The translations under genes were made by a program, and so were the position numbers. From the NCBI GenBank assembly GCA_001800275.1, contig MGVB01000121.1, positions 1 to 33,706 on the forward strand: DNA of 33,706 nt, in the 5' to 3' direction. Positions 1 through 16,490 of the stretch are shown piece by piece (position 1 is the stretch's first letter; every line of letters starts with the position of its first letter). The notes beneath the pieces were generated by a model that saw only the letters and a list, made by a program, of their open reading frames with translations, was not told where the DNA came from and ran no database searches. The DNA comes from Elusimicrobia bacterium RIFOXYA12_FULL_57_11 (GTDB taxonomy: Bacteria > Elusimicrobiota > Elusimicrobia > Elusimicrobiales > UBA9959).

Positions 1-3000
1 TTCACCGGGTCGGCGGCGGGCTGCCTGTCTGTAATGTAATACTGCCGGGTAGCGTCGGCATTCAGCTCTATAAAGAAGTTATTGTTGGGATCCGAGATCT
101 GCTCGGTGATGGTAGGCACCATGTTGTGGCTTGAAATGGCGATAAAGTAACCGCGGCCCGAGGGCAGCGACATATTTACCGCGCCTGAAGAATCAGTCAC
201 TCCCATGCGTATACCGTTGGGATCCATGCCGCCGGTCTGGTTGAAAGACATTACGGCGACGGCCACACCCTCAAGGCCCAGGTTGGGAACCTTGTTTACC
301 CGTACGGTAAGTTTGGGGTTGGTAGCTGTCATGGTGGACTGCGTGTGTTTGAAATATCCGGCGCCGTTAATGGTGTCGACGGTATAGGTCCCGGGCACAG
401 TATAGCCGCCCGCCACAGCGCCCATCTGCGCCGCGTCCATGGCCACATACACATTCCTTGCCCTGTCGGCGACTATGCCGCCGGCAGTATCTTCATTGTT
501 CCCGGCGCTGTTAAGCACCTGGGACCAGATAAAGTCACCCTCGGTATTGTATTTGCGCACGAAAATGTTCTTGCCCTGGTTCAGGTCATACCTGAACTCG
601 GTTCCGGAGATATAAACGCCGCCCACACCATCCAGTGCCAGGCCATAGGCTTCGTCCGGGTTCTGGTTGGTGGAATTGTAGGTTTTTTCCCACAATGCCC
701 CGCCCGCCAGGTCCTGAGCGTCATACTTAGCCAGGTAAGCGTCCTGTGTACCCATTCCCCCATCCACTGCGCCGGCCAGGTATACGGCAGCATTGTCCGT
801 GTCAACGGCAACGGCGTAGATCTCATCCTCAACCCCGAACTCGGCGGTAAGGTCCGTGCCCTCGTCGTTCAGGGAGCCGTCGAACGTAAAAACTTTAACA
901 AGTCCGTCCGCGTCCGTCCCGTTGAATATTCTTCCAGCGGCATACAGCAAGTCACCCTCAACATCATATGCCACTGCCCGGAAACGTTCCTCTCCGGAAG
1001 ACACATCCGGCAGCTTATAGAGGTCCTGCACCTCCCCGTCAGTGTCGAGAGCGGCCAGGAAAGCGTCGTCGTAAGTATTAGCGTCCGTGTTGTTATAAAA
1101 CTTGCCGGCCACAAAAACATTTGCCGGGCTGACAGCCAGGCCATAGGCGTGATCATTGCCGCCGTCTATGTCGTAAGACCGGGCCCAGTGCATGCGGCCG
1201 GAAACCGCGGAATACTTAATAAGGAGAACGTCTTTGCTGGTAACAGACTCCGGCATGGTGCAGGGGTAGTCGTTGGACATACAATAGTCCGAACCTTTGG
1301 TTCCCGCGGCGTACAAATTGCCTGCGGCGTCCAGCGCCAGGGCGTTTATGACCGGGCTGGAATTGTTATATTCGTCGGAATAATACCTGGTCCAGACCGG
1401 CTGTCCGAGCGGGCTGAACTTGCGCACATAGGCTGTGTTGGAATTCCAGCCCCAAGCGTTGAAAGAACCGGCGGTATAGATATTCCCCGCAGCGTCCCGC
1501 ACCAGCGGGAATCTTTCGCCATGCGCGTTATTCAACACAAAGAGATTGCCGTTGGGATAGCGGTCCATGCGGTCCCAGGTGCCGGGGGTATTGGCCACGG
1601 CTTCGGTAGAACCGCTTAGTTCCGTTACCGCCACCTCGGACGGCTGCTGGTAACCCAGTTTGAAGCGGTAAGTCGGAGAATCAATATTCCTCTGTCCGGG
1701 CACAGGCACCCCGTTGCCGGCTTCAAGGCCGGGCACCAGGCGGCTGACGGGCGAGCCGCTGAAGGCGGGGTAATCAATGAAGAAAGTGTATTGCGCGGCC
1801 GCGGAGTTAAAAACCACACCGGCGGGATCGGTGGTGTAATGCACATAGAAGGTGGTCCCGGCTGCCAGGTCCGTATCGGTCATCAGGGACAGCTGCACCG
1901 AACAGGGTTTATAACCGGTCATCGCGGTAAGGCCGCTGGAGGGCTCGGAGACGCGGGCCACACCGGGCTGGCCTTCTTCGTCAGACCCCCACATGTTAAA
2001 GAGCCCGCTGAGGTAGAAATACCCGTCCGCGCCGGCTTCCACGCCAAAAGCCTGTACGGATTCGTTCATATACGAACCGTCTATTGACTTGCTCCAGTCC
2101 ACCGCCCCGCTCGCCATATCATATTTACGCAGCAGCATATTCCTGTTGCCGTCGGGCGGGTAGGTACGCGTTTCGAAACCGGCCAAATACAGGCTGCCGG
2201 AATTTATTTTAAGCCCGTAAGCCGCCGCGGCCAAACCGTCCGCGGTATGCGTGCTTTCCCAGACAATGGAAGCCAGGTTGGCGGGGTTAAGCTTGGCCAC
2301 CCAGAACTGAGGCAGCGTATTGCTGGATTTCATGCCGGAAGCGTAAAGAAAGGCGCCGTCAACAGCCAGGCCGGTAACCCTGTCTAAGGTTTCAACGTCC
2401 GCTGTGAGGGGAGGGGTGGCGTTCACATAAGCATGGCTGCTTACGATGGTCAGCGAAGAATTCAGTTTCAGCACCACCGCGTCCCTGTCGGGAGCCGTGC
2501 CGTTGGGAGAACTCACATAACCGCCAGCGTACACGTTATTGGAGGCATCTATGGCCAGTGTCCAGATCTCCGCGGGTAAAGCCGAAGCGGGGCCATTGTC
2601 GAAAGTGGCGGAAGAAATGAACGCGCCGGAAGGGCTATACCTGGCCACCAGCATGTCGTCATTCTCACCGCTGCCGGCCTTAACGGAACCCGCGGCATAA
2701 ACATTGCCCCCCAGGTCCAGGGCCAGTGTGGAGAACCTGTCATCGCCGTCCGCTTCAGGGCCGGCTAATATGTTTTCCCACTGCAGCACGCCCGCGCTGT
2801 TAAACTTTGCCACCCACGCGTTGTCGCCGCTTACAGGCCCCTCAAAAGCGGCAGAACCGGCGACATAAATATTGCCGCTGGCGTCCAGCACCACCAGGCT
2901 GGCGTTAAAACGCCCGTTGGTTGAACTGGAATTATGAAAACTGGTCCATTCGGACACGCCCTGGGGATTTACCTTGGAAAGCGCCAGGCCCTGCATCATG

Positions 3001-4682
3001 CCGGTATATCCGGCGGCATGGGCGATATAAGTGTTGCCGCCCGCGTCACGGGCCATGCCCGCTACGGGAACACGCGCGCTGTTGAAAGTGTAGAAACTGT
3101 CCAGGCCGCGGTCCATCACCATCCAGGGGTTGAAAGGCGCATAAGGCACACTGGTGGTCACATTCAGTTCGGTCCAGATAGCGGAGTCGGGACTGGTCCA
3201 GACCTTGAAATAATATGCGGGCCCGGTCACGCCGTTGCCAGCGGCACCTGACTGGCCGGTTACAAAAGTAGGCAGGCCGCCAAGCGTGTGGATACGCGTA
3301 TCACCCGAGGTAACGGACAAGCCGGATTCGGTCACCTGCGCACTGGCGGGGCTCCAGGCTGTGCCGGGAATAGTGGAATACTGTATTTTGTAAGCGGAAA
3401 TATCGGCGGACTCGAAAACCCAGGAAAGATTGACCGAGCCCGTATTCCAGCCGGGGCCAGCAAAAAGCTGCTGCGGCGTGCCGAACTGTTCGGGGGCAAC
3501 GGTAACAAGGCCGTAACTATCGTCAAAGCCGCCGCCCACGGTCACCATGACGCTGCCTACCTCAACGTCATAGCCGACTTCAGAACCCCTGTCCGCAACC
3601 ACCTCGGAAATAAGGGAACCGGAAGGAGAATACTTACCCAGCCACAGATTATCCCCCTGGCCCAGCGTATAGGCCTGCACTTTGCCCGTCACATAAACAT
3701 TACCTACAGAATCCAGCGCCACTCCGTAACCCTTGTCATAGCCGTTGGAGGGGCCGTTCTTGGTTTTCGTATAGATCAGGTTACCGGATGGGTCGTATTT
3801 ACCCAGCCAGACATCGTTGCCGGTATTCTGGCCCTGGTAAAAGCCTACAACGTAAATGTTGCCGACGGCGTCGGTTTTAACGGCATGAGCCTCGTCCTGG
3901 CCCCAGTACTGATGGTTTTCGGCAGGAGTATAGGTACTGGCCCAGACCTGGGACAGGTTGGACTTATTGAATTTGCCCAGCCAGATCTCGTTACCGTAAC
4001 CGGTTTCCTCGTTCATGGTTCCGGAAACGACAAGGTGCGTTAAGGAGGATAACGCTATGGCATAGCCTGAACTATAGGAACCGCCGCTCACATTAACCTT
4101 GGAAACAGCACAACTCCCGGCCGGGAATTTCATTACAGCTATCTGGTTGCCGGTGGTACCGGCCACATAGGCGCCGGCGGCATCGGCCACAATGTCGTAA
4201 GCGTTATTGCCGTTGCCGGAATCATAAGAGCAGGACGAAACCTGCACACCGGTAGCGGGATTATATTTTGCCACCAATATTTTATTTATTTGGGAATCCA
4301 TCATCCTGCCCAGCACATACAGGCTGCCCACTCCGTCCAGGGCCACACCGCGGCCATAAGCGTCGCCGGTACCCGTAAATGTGCTGGTCCATATCTCAAT
4401 GCCGGACACTGGATTCATTTTCCTTATATATATCACGTTCTGGGAACCATTATAAAAAGTTCCCGCCATGTAAATATTGCCGTCCGCGTCTTTGGCGATA
4501 TTGTTTTCCATATCCCATTCATAGTTCTGCCAGGTTCCATTGCCGCTGGTAAGGTAAACAGTGGCGCCGTTGGCAACCGGCTGCGTGGAGATACCCCCCG
4601 GCACCTGGGCGCTGGCTTGCGCGGCGCACAGCGCTATCGCCAGCACCGCCAGATTTAAAATGAGTTTTTTAGTTTTAAACAT
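1..4682 (-). CDS. Giant exported beta-propeller (SBBP-like repeat) protein with Fn3-like linkers and a C-terminal carboxypeptidase-regulatory/Ig-like region; 3' end beyond the window
   Basis: Minus-strand frame reads from ATG (CAT at 4680-4682), preceded by AGGAGA RBS, as MFKTKKLILNLAVLAIALCAAQASAQVPGG... (signal peptide) and stays open to position 1 (...NADATRQYYITDRQPAADPV). Many D-x-x-G-N-x-Y-x-x-G blade motifs (DADGNIYMAG, DAVGNIYVVG, DSVGNVYVTG, DASGNIYVAG, DAAGNLYAAG). Absent from the ORF track because no stop lies in the window. Confidence 0.9.
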   Translation of the reverse strand, partial: MFKTKKLILNLAVLAIALCAAQASAQVPGGISTQPVANGATVYLTSGNGTWQNYEWDMENNIAKDADGNIYMAGTFYNGSQNVIYIRKMNPVSGIEIWTSTFTGTGDAYGRGVALDGVGSLYVLGRMMDSQINKILVAKYNPATGVQVSSCSYDSGNGNNAYDIVADAAGAYVAGTTGNQIAVMKFPAGSCAVSKVNVSGGSYSSGYAIALSSLTHLVVSGTMNEETGYGNEIWLGKFNKSNLSQVWASTYTPAENHQYWGQDEAHAVKTDAVGNIYVVGFYQGQNTGNDVWLGKYDPSGNLIYTKTKNGPSNGYDKGYGVALDSVGNVYVTGKVQAYTLGQGDNLWLGKYSPSGSLISEVVADRGSEVGYDVEVGSVMVTVGGGFDDSYGLVTVAPEQFGTPQQLFAGPGWNTGSVNLSWVFESADISAYKIQYSTIPGTAWSPASAQVTESGLSVTSGDTRIHTLGGLPTFVTGQSGAAGNGVTGPAYYFKVWTSPDSAIWTELNVTTSVPYAPFNPWMVMDRGLDSFYTFNSARVPVAGMARDAGGNTYIAHAAGYTGMMQGLALSKVNPQGVSEWTSFHNSSSTNGRFNASLVVLDASGNIYVAGSAAFEGPVSGDNAWVAKFNSAGVLQWENILAGPEADGDDRFSTLALDLGGNVYAAGSVKAGSGENDDMLVARYSPSGAFISSATFDNGPASALPAEIWTLAIDASNNVYAGGYVSSPNGTAPDRDAVVLKLNSSLTIVSSHAYVNATPPLTADVETLDRVTGLAVDGAFLYASGMKSSNTLPQFWVAKLNPANLASIVWESTHTADGLAAAAYGLKINSGSLYLAGFETRTYPPDGNRNMLLRKYDMASGAVDWSKSIDGSYMNESVQAFGVEAGADGYFYLSGLFNMWGSDEEGQPGVARVSEPSSGLTAMTGYKPCSVQLSLMTDTDLAAGTTFYVHYTTDPAGVVFNSAAAQYTFFIDYPAFSGSPVSRLVPGLEAGNGVPVPGQRNIDSPTYRFKLGYQQPSEVAVTELSGSTEAVANTPGTWDRMDRYPNGNLFVLNNAHGERFPLVRDAAGNIYTAGSFNAWGWNSNTAYVRKFSPLGQPVWTRYYSDEYNNSSPVINALALDAAGNLYAAGTKGSDYCMSNDYPCTMPESVTSKDVLLIKYSAVSGRMHWARSYDIDGGNDHAYGLAVSPANVFVAGKFYNNTDANTYDDAFLAALDTDGEVQDLYKLPDVSSGEERFRAVAYDVEGDLLYAAGRIFNGTDADGLVKVFTFDGSLNDEGTDLTAEFGVEDEIYAVAVDTDNAAVYLAGAVDGGMGTQDAYLAKYDAQDLAGGALWEKTYNSTNQNPDEAYGLALDGVGGVYISGTEFRYDLNQGKNIFVRKYNTEGDFIWSQVLNSAGNNEDTAGGIVADRARNVYVAMDAAQMGAVAGGYTVPGTYTVDTINGAGYFKHTQSTMTATNPKLTVRVNKVPNLGLEGVAVAVMSFNQTGGMDPNGIRMGVTDSSGAVNMSLPSGRGYFIAISSHNMVPTITEQISDPNNNFFIELNADATRQYYITDRQPAADPV

Positions 4683-4701
4683 AAGTTCTCCTGGGAAACG
4701 C

Positions 4702-4724
4702 GGCTGTGCGGCAAACCGCCAGCC
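4702..4724 (-). promoter_or_regulatory. Hairpin in leader of giant propeller gene
   Basis: Plus strand GGCTG-T-GCGG-CAAA-CCGC-CAGCC: 9 bp of stem with a 1-nt bulge and 4-nt loop, about 10 nt upstream of the RBS. Confidence 0.55.
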
Positions 4725-4773
4725 AAAAACTAATTACTGTATTCTCCCTCACACTACCGCCGGCATCACTGCT

Positions 4774-6009
4774 TTAAAATTCCCATTCCAGCCCCAGCAG
4801 GTAAGTGCTGGCCCTGTAGTTATACCTGTAGTTCTCCTCGTAGCGCATATTGGAGGTTGAAACCTGGTAGTTATACGCCGCGCGCGCGAAAAAACGGTTA
4901 AAGACCGGATACCGGGCCGTTATGGAGGTAAGCCAGAAAGTCTGGTTTATTTCGGAATCGGCGTAAGTGCCGGTAACGCCCTGTTTCAGGCGCCCCAGGT
5001 AATATACCCGGCGCCAATCCAGCGCAAAACCGAACTGCGCGCCGTTCTTCAGCGCCAGGTTCATGGCGGGGCTTACGGCTATGTCCACATAGCTGTAGTA
5101 ATCCTCCATGTATTCGCTCTGCACGGAATCGTAAGAGCCCTGGTTGGAACTCAGCCAGCCCACGCGCACGCCGGCGCTCAGGTAAAGCGGCTTCAGGACG
5201 CGGTTAGCCTTAAGACTCAAGTTCTGCATTATGTCGGCGCGCTTGTCGCTCTTGAAAGGCGATTGCCCCGTAACGGGCCTGGCGGCAATAGCCTGGTCCG
5301 CGTAACTGCGGTAGGTAAGGTCGTAGCCGGCCTTCATATTAAGCGGCTCGGGAAACCAGGCATAAGTAAAACCCAGCCGGTGACTGGTATTATCCATAGG
5401 GTCCGTGCCGGAATTGGTGGACAACTGGTTAAAAGTGTCGGTATCGTTGAAGACGGACTGGGACTGGGACAACAGCGTGCTGTAGTTGGGATAAGCCACC
5501 TTGTAAAAATCATAGGATTCGGTAAAGGTGCCGTGCGGTCGCTCCTGCTCCGCGTCGATACCCACCGAGAGCGTAGTGTAATCAAAAAGACCGTCGTTCC
5601 ATTTTTCGTCCTTGGTTTCCTTTATAAGGGCCTTGGAATAGGAAATGCGTGGTTTATACTTATTGAACTCATCCGTATACACATATTTCAGCGAGAAAGT
5701 GTGGGTCTGGCGCTGACGGGTGAGCACACCGCCGCCGGCTAGTTCCTGTATATCCTGCGTACCTGAATAGTTGCCGGAGTAAATCGGTATCAGGTCGTGG
5801 TTCTCACCCAGCTTCATGGCCGGGGAGAAAAAAGCGTCGAACCGGCCCTGGAAAGAGGCCGCGTCGGAATCCAGGTAATACTTCCCGCCCAGCAGTGAGA
5901 TATCAGCCACCGGGGTAATTTTTATTCCGGCGTTAAGGAGAGTGAAAGGGCACAAGGCCAGGCCCGCGGCTACGCACAGTTCAAAGAAGTGATTGTTTAT
6001 TTTTAACAT
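4774..6009 (-). CDS. Outer-membrane beta-barrel protein
   Basis: 411 aa; N-terminal hydrophobic signal-like segment, alternating aromatic/polar strands throughout, C-terminal ...YLLGLEWEF ending in Phe as in OMPs. Confidence 0.8.
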   Translation of the reverse strand: MLKINNHFFELCVAAGLALCPFTLLNAGIKITPVADISLLGGKYYLDSDAASFQGRFDAFFSPAMKLGENHDLIPIYSGNYSGTQDIQELAGGGVLTRQRQTHTFSLKYVYTDEFNKYKPRISYSKALIKETKDEKWNDGLFDYTTLSVGIDAEQERPHGTFTESYDFYKVAYPNYSTLLSQSQSVFNDTDTFNQLSTNSGTDPMDNTSHRLGFTYAWFPEPLNMKAGYDLTYRSYADQAIAARPVTGQSPFKSDKRADIMQNLSLKANRVLKPLYLSAGVRVGWLSSNQGSYDSVQSEYMEDYYSYVDIAVSPAMNLALKNGAQFGFALDWRRVYYLGRLKQGVTGTYADSEINQTFWLTSITARYPVFNRFFARAAYNYQVSTSNMRYEENYRYNYRASTYLLGLEWEF

Positions 6010-6020
6010 ACGCTGATTTC

Positions 6021-7472
6021 CTAATTAAACCGCAGCAGGCCTGCGTCTTTAAGCATCTTGGCGGAATAGATCACATTTATGGAGCGGCCGTCAAAAAGGT
6101 TGCTGGTATAAACGCGCTCAAAGTTAAGGCGGTCCGTTATCTGGTCCACTGTTTCCCCCCCGGACAGGCCCGCCCCGAAATCACCGGTGGAAAGGATCTT
6201 GCCGTCGTCGAACAGCACATAGTCCGAAGCTGCTATCCAGGTGCCGTCCGAATAATCATTCCTCAGGTAAGTATGAAAAACGTCCGAACCGGAAGGGGAT
6301 GACTGGGGGGCTCCGGTAGGCGCCGAGCCGCCAAGGTAAGAGATCGCGCTGCATTGGTTAAGCGGCACATTATAATCGGTTTTGGCCCACAACAGCCTGC
6401 CAAGCCCGCCGCCTTCCAAGGCCTGGTCCGGCCCTGCGGCATAAAAGGAATAGCTCCCGAAAACCAGGTTGCGGCGCGGGTCGGTGAAACTGCCGTTATA
6501 GACCATGGTACCCCCTGAAGCGTCCTCGGTAACCTTGTCGGTGGTGTTGCTCATAACGCTGTTCATGTCCGTAAGGTACCACTCCGGGGCGGAGGAACCG
6601 GGGGAAGAAATCATATTGGCGGTAGCCAATGAAAGATCCGAGGGCAGGGCGGCGTTGAAAGTGAACAGTATCTTGCCGAAGTCGAAGCGGCTGGCGCGGG
6701 TATTAAGCACCACGTATTTAAACTGGTTGGCGGCGGGCCGTATAGTATATTCCTCCATACGCACCCTGTTGCCGAAAGCGTCTATGGCCACCTTGCGGTT
6801 CTGGTACTCGGCCGACTGCATCTCCTCCTGTGCCCTGGCCAGTACGTCCTCTTTGGAAATTTCCCCGTAGATCTCGGCCCGGGCCGCCTGCCTTGCGTCA
6901 CCCAGCGTAGCATTCATGTCGCCGGGCTCGTTGGGGTTGGAGCCGGGGTCTTTCATTTTCCCGCCGTTGGGGATATCGGAGAACTGGCCTTCCCGCACCA
7001 ACCCGGTATTCCCTTTGGAATCGCCGGCAAGCACGCTGCCCTCGTAAACTTCCACGCGGCTGTTGCCGTCCGCATCCGCCGACACCATAAAATCCGTACC
7101 GCGTACGGCACAGACCGCGGAAGGGGTGCGCACTTCGAATTTTTTTGAAAATTTCTTCACCCAGGAACGGACCCGGCCGAAATAGAGCCCCAGCGACACC
7201 GCATCCTTATTCTCCGCCGACAGCTTGAAAGCGGAAACGGGGGCCAGTTTCACCCGCGAACCGTCATCCATGAAAATCTCCGCCGTGGAAGCCCTGGCGG
7301 TGCGCAGTTCGTCGCCCGCGGCCAGGGGCACGTTGTCGTTGCCCGCCAGCAGCCGCCAATCGGTGGCCCCGCTTTGCTTAAGCTCCACTTCCCCGCGCCG
7401 TTGCGCTATATAAGCCGCCTCCGAAAACTGGTAGATGAACATAAAACCGGTTAAAAGAATAAGGTGTTTCAT
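6021..7472 (-). CDS. Secreted FecR-domain protein with uncharacterised C-terminal region
   Basis: Starts MKHLILLTGFMFIYQFSEAAYIAQRRGEVELKQ (signal peptide), then FecR-type core ...VRTPSAVCAVRGTDFMVSADADGNSRVEVYEGSV. Start at 7472 has AAGGAG upstream; the track's 7598 start would put the promoter inside the CDS. Confidence 0.85.
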   Translation of the reverse strand: MKHLILLTGFMFIYQFSEAAYIAQRRGEVELKQSGATDWRLLAGNDNVPLAAGDELRTARASTAEIFMDDGSRVKLAPVSAFKLSAENKDAVSLGLYFGRVRSWVKKFSKKFEVRTPSAVCAVRGTDFMVSADADGNSRVEVYEGSVLAGDSKGNTGLVREGQFSDIPNGGKMKDPGSNPNEPGDMNATLGDARQAARAEIYGEISKEDVLARAQEEMQSAEYQNRKVAIDAFGNRVRMEEYTIRPAANQFKYVVLNTRASRFDFGKILFTFNAALPSDLSLATANMISSPGSSAPEWYLTDMNSVMSNTTDKVTEDASGGTMVYNGSFTDPRRNLVFGSYSFYAAGPDQALEGGGLGRLLWAKTDYNVPLNQCSAISYLGGSAPTGAPQSSPSGSDVFHTYLRNDYSDGTWIAASDYVLFDDGKILSTGDFGAGLSGGETVDQITDRLNFERVYTSNLFDGRSINVIYSAKMLKDAGLLRFN

Positions 7473-7541: not shown

Positions 7542-7571
7542 ATTATAGGTTACCCCCTCCGGCAGTGTCAA
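7542..7571 (-). promoter_or_regulatory. Sigma70-type promoter for the FecR/barrel/propeller operon
   Basis: On the minus strand TTGACA (7566-7571), 18-bp spacer, TATAAT (7542-7547); both hexamers match consensus exactly. A second TTGACA abuts the -10 at 7536-7541. Confidence 0.7.
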
Positions 7572-12249: not shown

Positions 12250-12272
12250 GCGGGATTATGTCCCGCTTTTTT
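12250..12272 (+). terminator. Rho-independent terminator after tolB
   Basis: GCGGGA-TTATG-TCCCGC followed by TTTTTT. Confidence 0.8.
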
Positions 12273-12771
12273 ATTTGAAAAAAACGGAACGCACCCTGTC
12301 AAACAGTGAGCAGAAGAAACACTCCCCGGCAATGGCCGGGCGGACACCGTGGAATTTCAGGTCCTTGTTGGCTTTAAGCGCGGCGGCCAGTTCCCCCTCC
12401 AGCAGCGCCAGGAACTCCGCCCCAAGACGTTTGCGGCGTTCGGAAAGCATGCCGGGGTTCACCACATTCTCCAGGGCAAAATATTCCTGCCCGCAAAAAG
12501 CCTGGATATACGGGCTTTCCATAAATTCCAGGACCGCGTCCTCGTCGGAAATATTCTTAAGCTGTTTTACCGCCAGCAGGCCGCAAACCAGCCGCGAATC
12601 CTTGGCGGGCCGGCCATAACCGGCCGAGAAATACCGGCCGTAAGCCTCGTCGAGCTTTCCCCAGGGCAACGCCTCCGCCAGCCTGAGCCAGCGGTTAGCA
12701 AGTGACAGTTTGCCCCCCAAATGGAATAATCTGCCGAACAGCGAGGGATTGAATTTTTCAGAGCGGTACAT
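12271..12771 (-). CDS. Stand-alone IS5-type transposase N-terminal (DUF772-like) domain protein; no DDE catalytic domain
   Basis: ATG at 12771 (MYRSEKFNPSLFGRLFHL...); GRPAKDSRLVCGLLAVKQLKNISDEDAVLEFMESPYIQAFCGQEYF...LSERRKRLG matches the N-terminal region of IS5-like transposases. ORF ends before any DDE region. The track start 12807 uses TTG. Confidence 0.7.
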   Translation of the reverse strand: MYRSEKFNPSLFGRLFHLGGKLSLANRWLRLAEALPWGKLDEAYGRYFSAGYGRPAKDSRLVCGLLAVKQLKNISDEDAVLEFMESPYIQAFCGQEYFALENVVNPGMLSERRKRLGAEFLALLEGELAAALKANKDLKFHGVRPAIAGECFFCSLFDRVRSVFFK

Positions 12772-12803
12772 GTTATTTTCCCGGGAAGAGAGCGCCCGGC
12801 GCC

Positions 12804-13367
12804 TCAATTTTCAGGCTGGAAACACTTGCGGCAGCGGGCTTCGTACTTATCCCCGGCCCCTACTTCTATGCGGCGCCCGGAATCCGTCAAACGCTGGCTG
12901 AAATGGGCTGGATTGCCGCAAACCATGCAGATGGCCAGGTTCTTGGTGACGAACTCCGCCACGGCCATAAGTTTGGCCATGGTAGTAAACGGGGCGCCGC
13001 GGTAATCCTGGTCGAGCCCGGCCACTATAACGCGCTTACCGCAATCCGCCAGTTTGCCGCAGACCTCAGCCAGTTCATCCCCGAAAAAATGCGCCTCGTC
13101 TATGCCCACCACCTGCGTGTCGCGGGCCACTTCCTTAAGGATTTCTTTGGCGGTTTTCACCGGGCGGGCCGACAGCGTGGTCTTATCGTGCGAGACCAGA
13201 TGCTCCTTTGAATAGCGGGTATCCAGGTGGGAATTAAAGACCTGCACTTTCTGCCGGGCTATGTTAGCCAATTTAAGGCGCCTTATAAGCTCCTGTGTTT
13301 TACCGGAGAACATGCTGCCGCAGACCACCTCTATCCAACCCGACGAAGACGAGACATTAAATATCAT
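12804..13367 (-). CDS. tdk: Thymidine kinase
   Basis: GSMFSGKTQELIRRL P-loop, IDEAHFF, YRGAPF, Zn ligands CMVC...CRKC. Confidence 0.95.
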   Translation of the reverse strand: MIFNVSSSSGWIEVVCGSMFSGKTQELIRRLKLANIARQKVQVFNSHLDTRYSKEHLVSHDKTTLSARPVKTAKEILKEVARDTQVVGIDEAHFFGDELAEVCGKLADCGKRVIVAGLDQDYRGAPFTTMAKLMAVAEFVTKNLAICMVCGNPAHFSQRLTDSGRRIEVGAGDKYEARCRKCFQPEN

Positions 13368-14405: not shown

Positions 14406-16490
14406 CTAATCCCTTACAGCTCCCGCCTGCCGCCACGGGTGCCAGAATTGCCGGGAGCGCTCGTCCAGGTTATTGTACCGGGAGGGATCGTTAAGTTTAA
14501 GGTTCACAAAAAAGAAGAACTCCTTAACGCCGCCCGCCCTTACCCTGAAATCCCAACGGGTGCGGAAATCGTGGAAATCCCTGTAAAGGGACACTGATTT
14601 TTCGAAGAACATGAATGAGCTGAATTTCAGCAGCCCCGAAGGCACCGCCCTGTAGCGCAAGGTAGCCTCCGCGCGCCACTTGGAGCCGCGCCAGGGGCGG
14701 AACCCCGCGGTATTGCTGAGCACCCAGGCCGCAGAATACGTGCTGTAATTAGCCAGGCCGGCGCCAAAGTATGTTTCCCCGCCGCCAAAATTCACCTGCG
14801 AAACGAAACTGCGGTTGCCATCCGAAAAGCTGTAGGAATCTTCGGCGTAAAGGTCCAGGGAAGGCCGGGGCGCATAATAAGCTTCAGCTATCAGGGGAGC
14901 CAGCCGGCGCGTGAAAGAAGCGGAAAAATAATCCCGCAGGTCATAGGAAGTGCGCGCCCTGAAATAGGAATTATGGCGCGGCATCAGGAACAAGTCGGCA
15001 TATAAAGACTCCGCCTCCTGTCCTTTGTCGGGCGCACCGAGGTCCGCCGCAAAAGCGCCTTCGCGCAGGCGCCGCTGGTACGAATAGCGCAGGTCCATGG
15101 ACCCCCAAAGCCGGTCATAGCGCAGGTTCAGGCTGCCGCCGTAGCGCCCCGTCCAGGCGTCGCTGCCGGCCGTGGTGGTGGAGAACAGCACCGCCTGGTC
15201 GTAAAAAACCGAAGGTGAAAGTATTACCCGGCGGCTCAGCGGGACCGTTTTAGAAACCGTCCAGGCGCCGCGGCCCTTTTTCTGATAATACGGGAGGCCG
15301 GCTTCTTTAGCGTTTTCCAGGTACCCGCCACAAGAATTCAGCACCGGCACGCCGGGGATGGCGAACGGCATCACATTCAGGTCCAGCCTGGGAGCCGACT
15401 CATAAGCTTTACGGAACTTCTCCGGGTTGCGCACCGAACGCTCGTCGCGGCCATAAGCGCTTACCCGCATTACCGTGTAATTGGATTTGCGGGTGAACGC
15501 CAGGCTGGCCTGCTTGTCAGGGGAGACCGCGAAGGGATTGCTGCGAAAAAAATCGTTATTAAAAGCCGGGTCGGAGATCAGCCGGAAAAAAGACTGGCTG
15601 TAGTATTGCGCCGGATCCGATTCGTTGAACCGGTTGAAGGAATGCCAGTAACCGCCGTTGATGCCCCAGCGGTCGATATGGCTGCCGTATTCCCGTATGC
15701 GGTAAAGCGACACATTACTCGTGTTTTTTTCCGGCCGGTGATAATCCAGCTCTCCGCCCGTCCCCACGCCGCGTTTGGCAAAATAGTCGAGGTAAACCCT
15801 GGCCCTGGTCCGCGGGTTTATACGGTAAGCGTAGTTGGACTTGATAAAAAATCCGTTTCGCTCGTCGTAGCCCGGAAAAAAACTACTCACAAAAGGGGTG
15901 CCGCCGCCTATAGGTTTATAGAACACCGGGAAATAGAAAACCGGGATCTTGCCGATAAAGAGCATCGTATTATAAGCCAGGAAATACCGTCCCGGCGCCA
16001 GGTAAATACGGGAAGCCCTCAGCCTGTAATGCGGCGGTTCTTCTTCACAGCTGGTAACGCTGGCTTTCTTGTAGACGTAACCGGACTGGTCGAACTCCAC
16101 CCGGCGGCCGCGGAATACGAAATTCTTATAAGAGAACCGGGCGTCGTTGATGTTGCCCGAGTCGGATGCGTAACTGATCTCCCCGCTTTTGCCGTAGATA
16201 GTGCCCGTGTCGTCGTCCACCACGAAATCCGCCGGGGAGATCACCGTCCTGCTGGCCATATTTACCGAAAGGTTTCTGGCGCGGACAAGCTTCATCACCC
16301 TGTCCTGCGCCGACACCTCCTCAAGTTTAACATCTCCGCTGAGCGCGATGACCCGGGTATATTCGTTGAACTGCGCCTCATCGGCCCAAAAACGCACCCT
16401 GTGCGCGCCCGTAGACGAAGGCAGCTCATATGCTCCGGCGGACATGACCGGCGCCAGCGTTAAAAGTATCCGGAAAATGTTTTTTTTCAT
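14406..16490 (-). CDS. lptD: LPS-assembly protein LptD (OstA)-like outer membrane protein
   Basis: Signal peptide, N-terminal OstA-like beta-jellyroll (VRFWADEAQFNEYTRVIALSGDVKLEE...), YNTMLFIGKIPVFYFPVFYKPIG motif, barrel-like C-terminus. Confidence 0.85.
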   Translation of the reverse strand: MKKNIFRILLTLAPVMSAGAYELPSSTGAHRVRFWADEAQFNEYTRVIALSGDVKLEEVSAQDRVMKLVRARNLSVNMASRTVISPADFVVDDDTGTIYGKSGEISYASDSGNINDARFSYKNFVFRGRRVEFDQSGYVYKKASVTSCEEEPPHYRLRASRIYLAPGRYFLAYNTMLFIGKIPVFYFPVFYKPIGGGTPFVSSFFPGYDERNGFFIKSNYAYRINPRTRARVYLDYFAKRGVGTGGELDYHRPEKNTSNVSLYRIREYGSHIDRWGINGGYWHSFNRFNESDPAQYYSQSFFRLISDPAFNNDFFRSNPFAVSPDKQASLAFTRKSNYTVMRVSAYGRDERSVRNPEKFRKAYESAPRLDLNVMPFAIPGVPVLNSCGGYLENAKEAGLPYYQKKGRGAWTVSKTVPLSRRVILSPSVFYDQAVLFSTTTAGSDAWTGRYGGSLNLRYDRLWGSMDLRYSYQRRLREGAFAADLGAPDKGQEAESLYADLFLMPRHNSYFRARTSYDLRDYFSASFTRRLAPLIAEAYYAPRPSLDLYAEDSYSFSDGNRSFVSQVNFGGGETYFGAGLANYSTYSAAWVLSNTAGFRPWRGSKWRAEATLRYRAVPSGLLKFSSFMFFEKSVSLYRDFHDFRTRWDFRVRAGGVKEFFFFVNLKLNDPSRYNNLDERSRQFWHPWRQAGAVRD

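Follow-up and report, generated by a model that had tools for sequence, protein, structure and literature searches.

The type IX secretion system (T9SS) has been described as restricted to Bacteroidetes (PMC4793230) or as limited to the Bacteroidetes-Chlorobi-Fibrobacteres group (PMC12421860). In Flavobacterium, cargo leaves SprA by lateral opening, C-terminal domain first and complexed with PorV (PMC10994853), and cognate shuttles are often encoded next to their cargo (PMC12618676). Published precedents exist both for cognate gene pairs of cargo and shuttle and for anchoring by a barrel (PMC12618676, PMC9143113); in Bacteroidota, the latter is represented by PorE-PorP and SprF (PMC9143113). 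We found no report of a T9SS in Elusimicrobia in the open-access literature, and an earlier mention elsewhere is possible.

Here we analyze a 33,706-nucleotide stretch of an Elusimicrobia genome (referred to as the window), in which a FecR-domain protein, an outer-membrane barrel and a giant protein are encoded side by side. Elusimicrobiota share with the Bacteroidota T9SS a SprA-like translocon, a PorV-family shuttle, adjacent cargo and shuttle genes, and large cargo that has a signal peptide and ends in an Ig-like domain. They differ in lying outside the Bacteroidetes-Chlorobi-Fibrobacteres group, in the expansion of the PorV family and in the extra FecR-barrel pair. A giant surface protein with a barrel encoded alongside is also seen for SprB-SprF and for type B cargo with PorP-like barrels, and a barrel with a periplasmic partner in the PorE-PorP-PG1035 complex (PMC9143113, PMC12618676). 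However, the window barrel does not belong to the PorP/SprF family and has approximately 16 strands against 14, FecR is unrelated to PorE by family searches, and in contrast to both systems the window cargo has a PorV-type partner as well. The FecR-domain/SBBP surface lipoproteins of Leptospira (LipL45, Lsa33, LipL53 family) have the same domains, but their NCBIfam models match far under the cut-offs, inspection by eye shows no lipobox in the window proteins, and both architecture and gene context of the window unit are different.

Layout of the unit and architecture of the giant protein

The genes follow each other in tandem on the minus strand: a FecR-domain protein of 483 aa (6021-7472; ATG start after an AAGGAGC ribosome site), a beta-barrel of 411 aa (4774-6009) and the giant (3-4682). 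Gaps of 11 nt (FecR/barrel) and 91 nt (barrel/giant) agree with the three-gene unit proposed in an earlier, sequence-only reading of this DNA. The strong promoter which that reading placed ahead of the FecR gene is likewise present: a sigma-70 promoter (TTGACA-18-TATAAT, 7542-7571, minus strand) matches the consensus at 12 of 12 positions, and in most relatives a near-consensus promoter is located about 100 nt 5' of the FecR start. Presumably the genes of the unit are co-transcribed. What the earlier reading missed, however, is a fourth gene and a secretion-type C-terminal domain, both situated beyond the contig end.

The frame of the giant is still open at base 3. Because the window starts at base 1 of its contig (C121), the gene is truncated by the contig end. 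Its remainder is found together with a PorV gene on another contig of the same genome (C87), which encodes the final 1,299 aa of the protein (cargo part L091:1-3900) and then PorV (3935-4867 of L091). The own-genome giant is known as these two pieces, for which a relative of 3,033 aa serves as reference; since the window corresponds to residues 1-1562 and C87 to residues 1711-3033 of that relative, about 150 residues are lost between the contigs. In relatives the unit reads FecR, barrel, giant, PorV.

The window holds the N-terminal 1,560 aa of a giant of about 3,000 aa. Pfam detects SBBP repeats, and three propeller-like blocks with a mutual identity of 26-32% can be distinguished on the minus strand: residues 41-404 (3471-4562), 551-925 (1908-3032) and 1051-1439 (366-1532). 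A conserved core of approximately 1,550 aa begins at about 3-275 (minus strand), while its further domains, the C-terminal one included, lie outside the window. Complete giants in twelve related genomes range from 1,543 to 4,903 aa. All of them have this core, which carries carboxypeptidase-regulatory-like (prealbumin-type) repeats and has a FlgD-Ig domain at the C-terminal end, and which shows about 30% identity to a cargo of approximately 1,620 aa in other Elusimicrobiota families. Along the protein, conservation climbs from approximately 0.35-0.45 in the propellers to 0.78 at the C-terminal end. The propellers precede the core as an N-terminal extension whose length differs between relatives: one of these (L071) has none, and they take up about 870 aa in L070, about 1,470 aa among the window's close relatives, about 2,400 aa in L067 and about 3,380 aa in L069. 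Judged from these sequences, it is the propeller part that is adjustable, with core and C-terminal domain kept constant. The description of the giant as a triple-propeller protein is therefore correct as far as the three blocks are concerned, but the propellers are the variable part and do not define the protein.

Matches to the C-terminal domain also occur inside open frames of 10,370, 12,767 and 17,343 aa (G000:C122:30849-31082, G226:C36:96304-96504 and G037:C6:90212-90400), far bigger giants than that of the window. The first two of these (G000 and G226) are followed by a PorV-family gene within about 650 nt.

Type-IX-like components and cargo-shuttle gene pairs

A SprA/Sov-like protein of about 1,800 aa was detected, in separate collinear stretches, in 253 of the 295 phylum genomes. 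The own genome is among them (contig C23, locus L078), as are 111 of the 115 genomes that carry the barrel. Its sole NCBIfam match is Sov/SprA (E 7e-35), with a score of 119.7 bits against a curated cut-off of 200. When a profile of eight SprA-like proteins was compared to 177,635 PDB sequences, SprA alone was found (E 2.5e-27, three collinear stretches). We also observed that the SprA-like gene adjoins lptF/lptG (LPS export permeases) and a comF-like gene (L079:2825-11250 and L081:5512-13988); this neighbourhood is conserved, since the same neighbours are seen in two distant families.

The C-terminal domain of the own-genome cargo scores above the cut-off for FlgD_ig (31.2 bits against 27), whereas the T9SS sorting model TIGR04183 stays below it (14.8-18.4 against 23); the FlgD-Ig match is thus the stronger one. 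The domain also matched PorU and PorZ weakly, at their C-termini. For the motor, ring and sortase components of the T9SS, searches run without a responding control genome gave no usable match to the motor GldL/GldM (PorL/PorM) and no match to the ring protein GldN or the sortase Peptidase_C25.

Directly 3' of the giant, all twelve related genomes have a PorV/PorQ-family gene of about 309 aa (in the twelfth relative, L069, at G248:C84:105954-106805). The family assignment is based on NF033709, for which the score exceeds the NCBIfam curated cut-off, and a profile of the twelve downstream proteins has PorV (6h3i_F, E 8.8e-29) as its only PDB match. Among 26 relative genomes the number of PorV-family genes amounts to 15-40 in the genus of the window versus 1-6 in a family with small genomes (f2).

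Linkage between cargo and shuttle extends well beyond this unit. Six genomes together contain 83 C-terminal-domain genes, and 55 of these are directly followed, at 81-521 nt and on the same strand, by a PorV-family gene; the chance expectation is 0.23 and both orientation controls gave 0. The profile used here was derived from the unit's own cargo and most of the 83 genes match it weakly; it is the PorV adjacency that makes them credible. The free-living genomes tested each contain 13-23 C-terminal-domain matches versus 1-4 barrels, and the other cargo-PorV pairs of the same genomes were mostly found without this barrel.

The FecR-barrel pair

The FecR protein has no N-terminal anti-sigma domain, because Pfam finds the FecR domain only (PF04773, residues 54-147, 7032-7313 on the minus strand, E 5.6e-18). 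Furthermore, no sigma factor or TonB receptor was found by Pfam among 20 other window proteins (the Pal and CpoB-like ORFs fell outside the scan). Both points had been noted before, together with the statement that this is not a classic Fec cassette, and both hold. The likeness to FecIRA cell-surface signalling is confined to the fold of the domain. The N-terminus looks like a signal peptide, making one probable; signal peptides in this unit were judged by eye only.

For the AlphaFold2 model of the protein (pLDDT 83.6), structure comparison shows the FecR domain to be similar to the signalling domain of PupR (6ovk, E 2e-6) and to 4m0n, a putative anti-sigma factor, while the C-terminal part of about 280 aa has no confident fold match in the PDB. 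Foldseek aligns the protein to 5ix9, annotated as a 'cell surface anchoring domain' (prob 1.00, TMt 0.73, 67 columns, E 0.05), and the paralogous FecR protein gives a weak LapA-retention match (E 0.03). These matches hint at an anchoring-type fold and are too weak for reliance.

The barrel was modelled with confidence as a porin-sized structure of about 16 strands (mean pLDDT 88, 41-sequence alignment) that has no POTRA-like or other additional domain. It represents an unnamed, phylum-wide family. The earlier note had raised the possibility of a match to a well-known porin family; Pfam, NCBIfam and PDB profile searches gave no match, and Foldseek returned generic barrels only, with TM <0.5 on the query. 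The PorP/SprF model TIGR03519 matches proteins on two other contigs of the own genome (C83 and C163), not the window barrel.

We detected the barrel model in 115 of 295 Elusimicrobiota genomes, which come from 60 of 89 genera; family f2, with its small genomes, lacks it almost entirely. Gene order in relatives, another check suggested earlier, shows the pair kept together: at 69 of 69 barrels (57 loci and the window) a same-strand FecR gene adjoins the barrel gene, in nearly all cases at no more than 200 nt. The 69 cases are not all independent, since several loci are the same genome reached by two routes and one (L030) is the window itself. Moreover, L002-L027 were picked by FecR and therefore prove nothing by themselves, and the contig scan with short FecR-protein peptide patterns reaches close relatives only. 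The 35 barrels in L028-L059, however, were located through the barrel model alone, and the 23 barrels of L040-L059 cover many families. Where their flanks are long enough, the cluster also includes PorV and a cargo gene that encodes this C-terminal domain, ordered either as FecR-barrel-cargo-PorV or as cargo-PorV-barrel-FecR. Several genomes (G111 among them) even contain paired units, arranged as cargo2-PorV2-barrel2-FecR2-FecR1-barrel1-cargo1-PorV1.

In five genomes, a PorV-family gene is found no more than 4 kb away from 10 of the 28 FecR-domain genes, a count that leaves out the units in which the giant gene separates FecR from PorV. A second, shorter FecR-domain gene (about 250 aa) was observed approximately 400 nt from a PorV-family gene, without a barrel, in three genomes (G264:C25:111978-113489, G111:C11:328238-329799 and G226:C20:59250-60742). 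The linkage of FecR to PorV may thus be more general.

A probable type-IX-like unit and competing explanations

Taken together, we consider it fairly probable that this is a type-IX-like cargo and shuttle unit of Elusimicrobiota, in which the FecR-barrel pair is a partner specific to this lineage, probably an anchor. The giant would enter the periplasm by means of its Sec signal peptide. Its FlgD-Ig/T9SS-like C-terminal domain would then be recognised at an outer-membrane translocon of the SprA/Sov type, whose gene lies elsewhere in the genome, and the PorV-family shuttle from the gene directly downstream would collect the protein there. Export of the cargo by this route we infer from homology and gene linkage. 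The giant likely ends up on the cell surface, where the propellers would face outward. FecR in the periplasm and the barrel in the outer membrane would form a dedicated pair retaining cargo or shuttle at the envelope, that is, an envelope anchor or receiving station with a role analogous to PorE-PorP or SprF of Bacteroidota. By this analogy a barrel serving as anchor of the cargo, with FecR as its periplasmic partner, is plausible. A wider reading, which we put forward tentatively, is that type IX secretion has a genuine deep branch in Elusimicrobiota, beyond the Bacteroidetes-Chlorobi-Fibrobacteres group, in which many cargo genes have a PorV-type shuttle each and the FecR-barrel pair is a new anchor for a giant of adjustable length.

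Several other explanations have to be weighed. The sequence-only reading had considered that the barrel exports the propeller protein; in its general form, the giant would pass through the barrel, as in two-partner secretion or another route mediated by a barrel, and FecR would act as the adaptor in the periplasm. The constant pairing of FecR and barrel and the position of the barrel gene next to the cargo gene would fit such a role. Nevertheless we regard it as improbable, because a SprA/Sov-type translocon is encoded and the gene of a cognate PorV-type shuttle follows the giant. A porin-sized barrel lacking any extra domain also argues against it, as does the finding that most other cargo-PorV pairs do without this barrel. 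The latter finding can also be taken to suggest that barrel and FecR are a common porin and its partner in the periplasm, mere companions of cargo and PorV that have no part in export or anchoring, and the generic, porin-like fold matches point in the same direction. Yet the pair keeps to one class of cargo, having the long core and a high-scoring C-terminal domain, and this association holds in two gene orders and across families; a companion porin is for these reasons rather unlikely.

The structural likeness of the FecR domain to PupR and to a putative anti-sigma factor raises the question of signalling, in which FecR would report the occupancy of the surface or the barrel to transcription in the manner of Fec systems. 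This is very improbable given a FecR protein without a cytoplasmic anti-sigma domain, the finding of neither sigma factor nor TonB receptor in the window genes scanned, and a consensus promoter of the housekeeping type ahead of the unit.

If the type-IX-like reading is true, the phylum-wide SprA-like translocon and the PorV-cargo pairs place the core of the T9SS outside the Bacteroidetes-Chlorobi-Fibrobacteres group. Tens of PorV-family genes per genome, with most of the detected C-terminal-domain genes directly paired, would offer a natural experiment in cargo-shuttle specificity. The FecR-barrel pair, constant at every site, is a clean target for studying the function of FecR domains beyond iron signalling.

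Elsewhere in the window, an ORF with a transposase domain (DUF772; 12271-12807), probably a fragment, adjoins a thymidine kinase gene. A protein of 694 aa (14406-16490) has no Pfam match at E<=1e-5 and is found in the same neighbourhood in several relatives.
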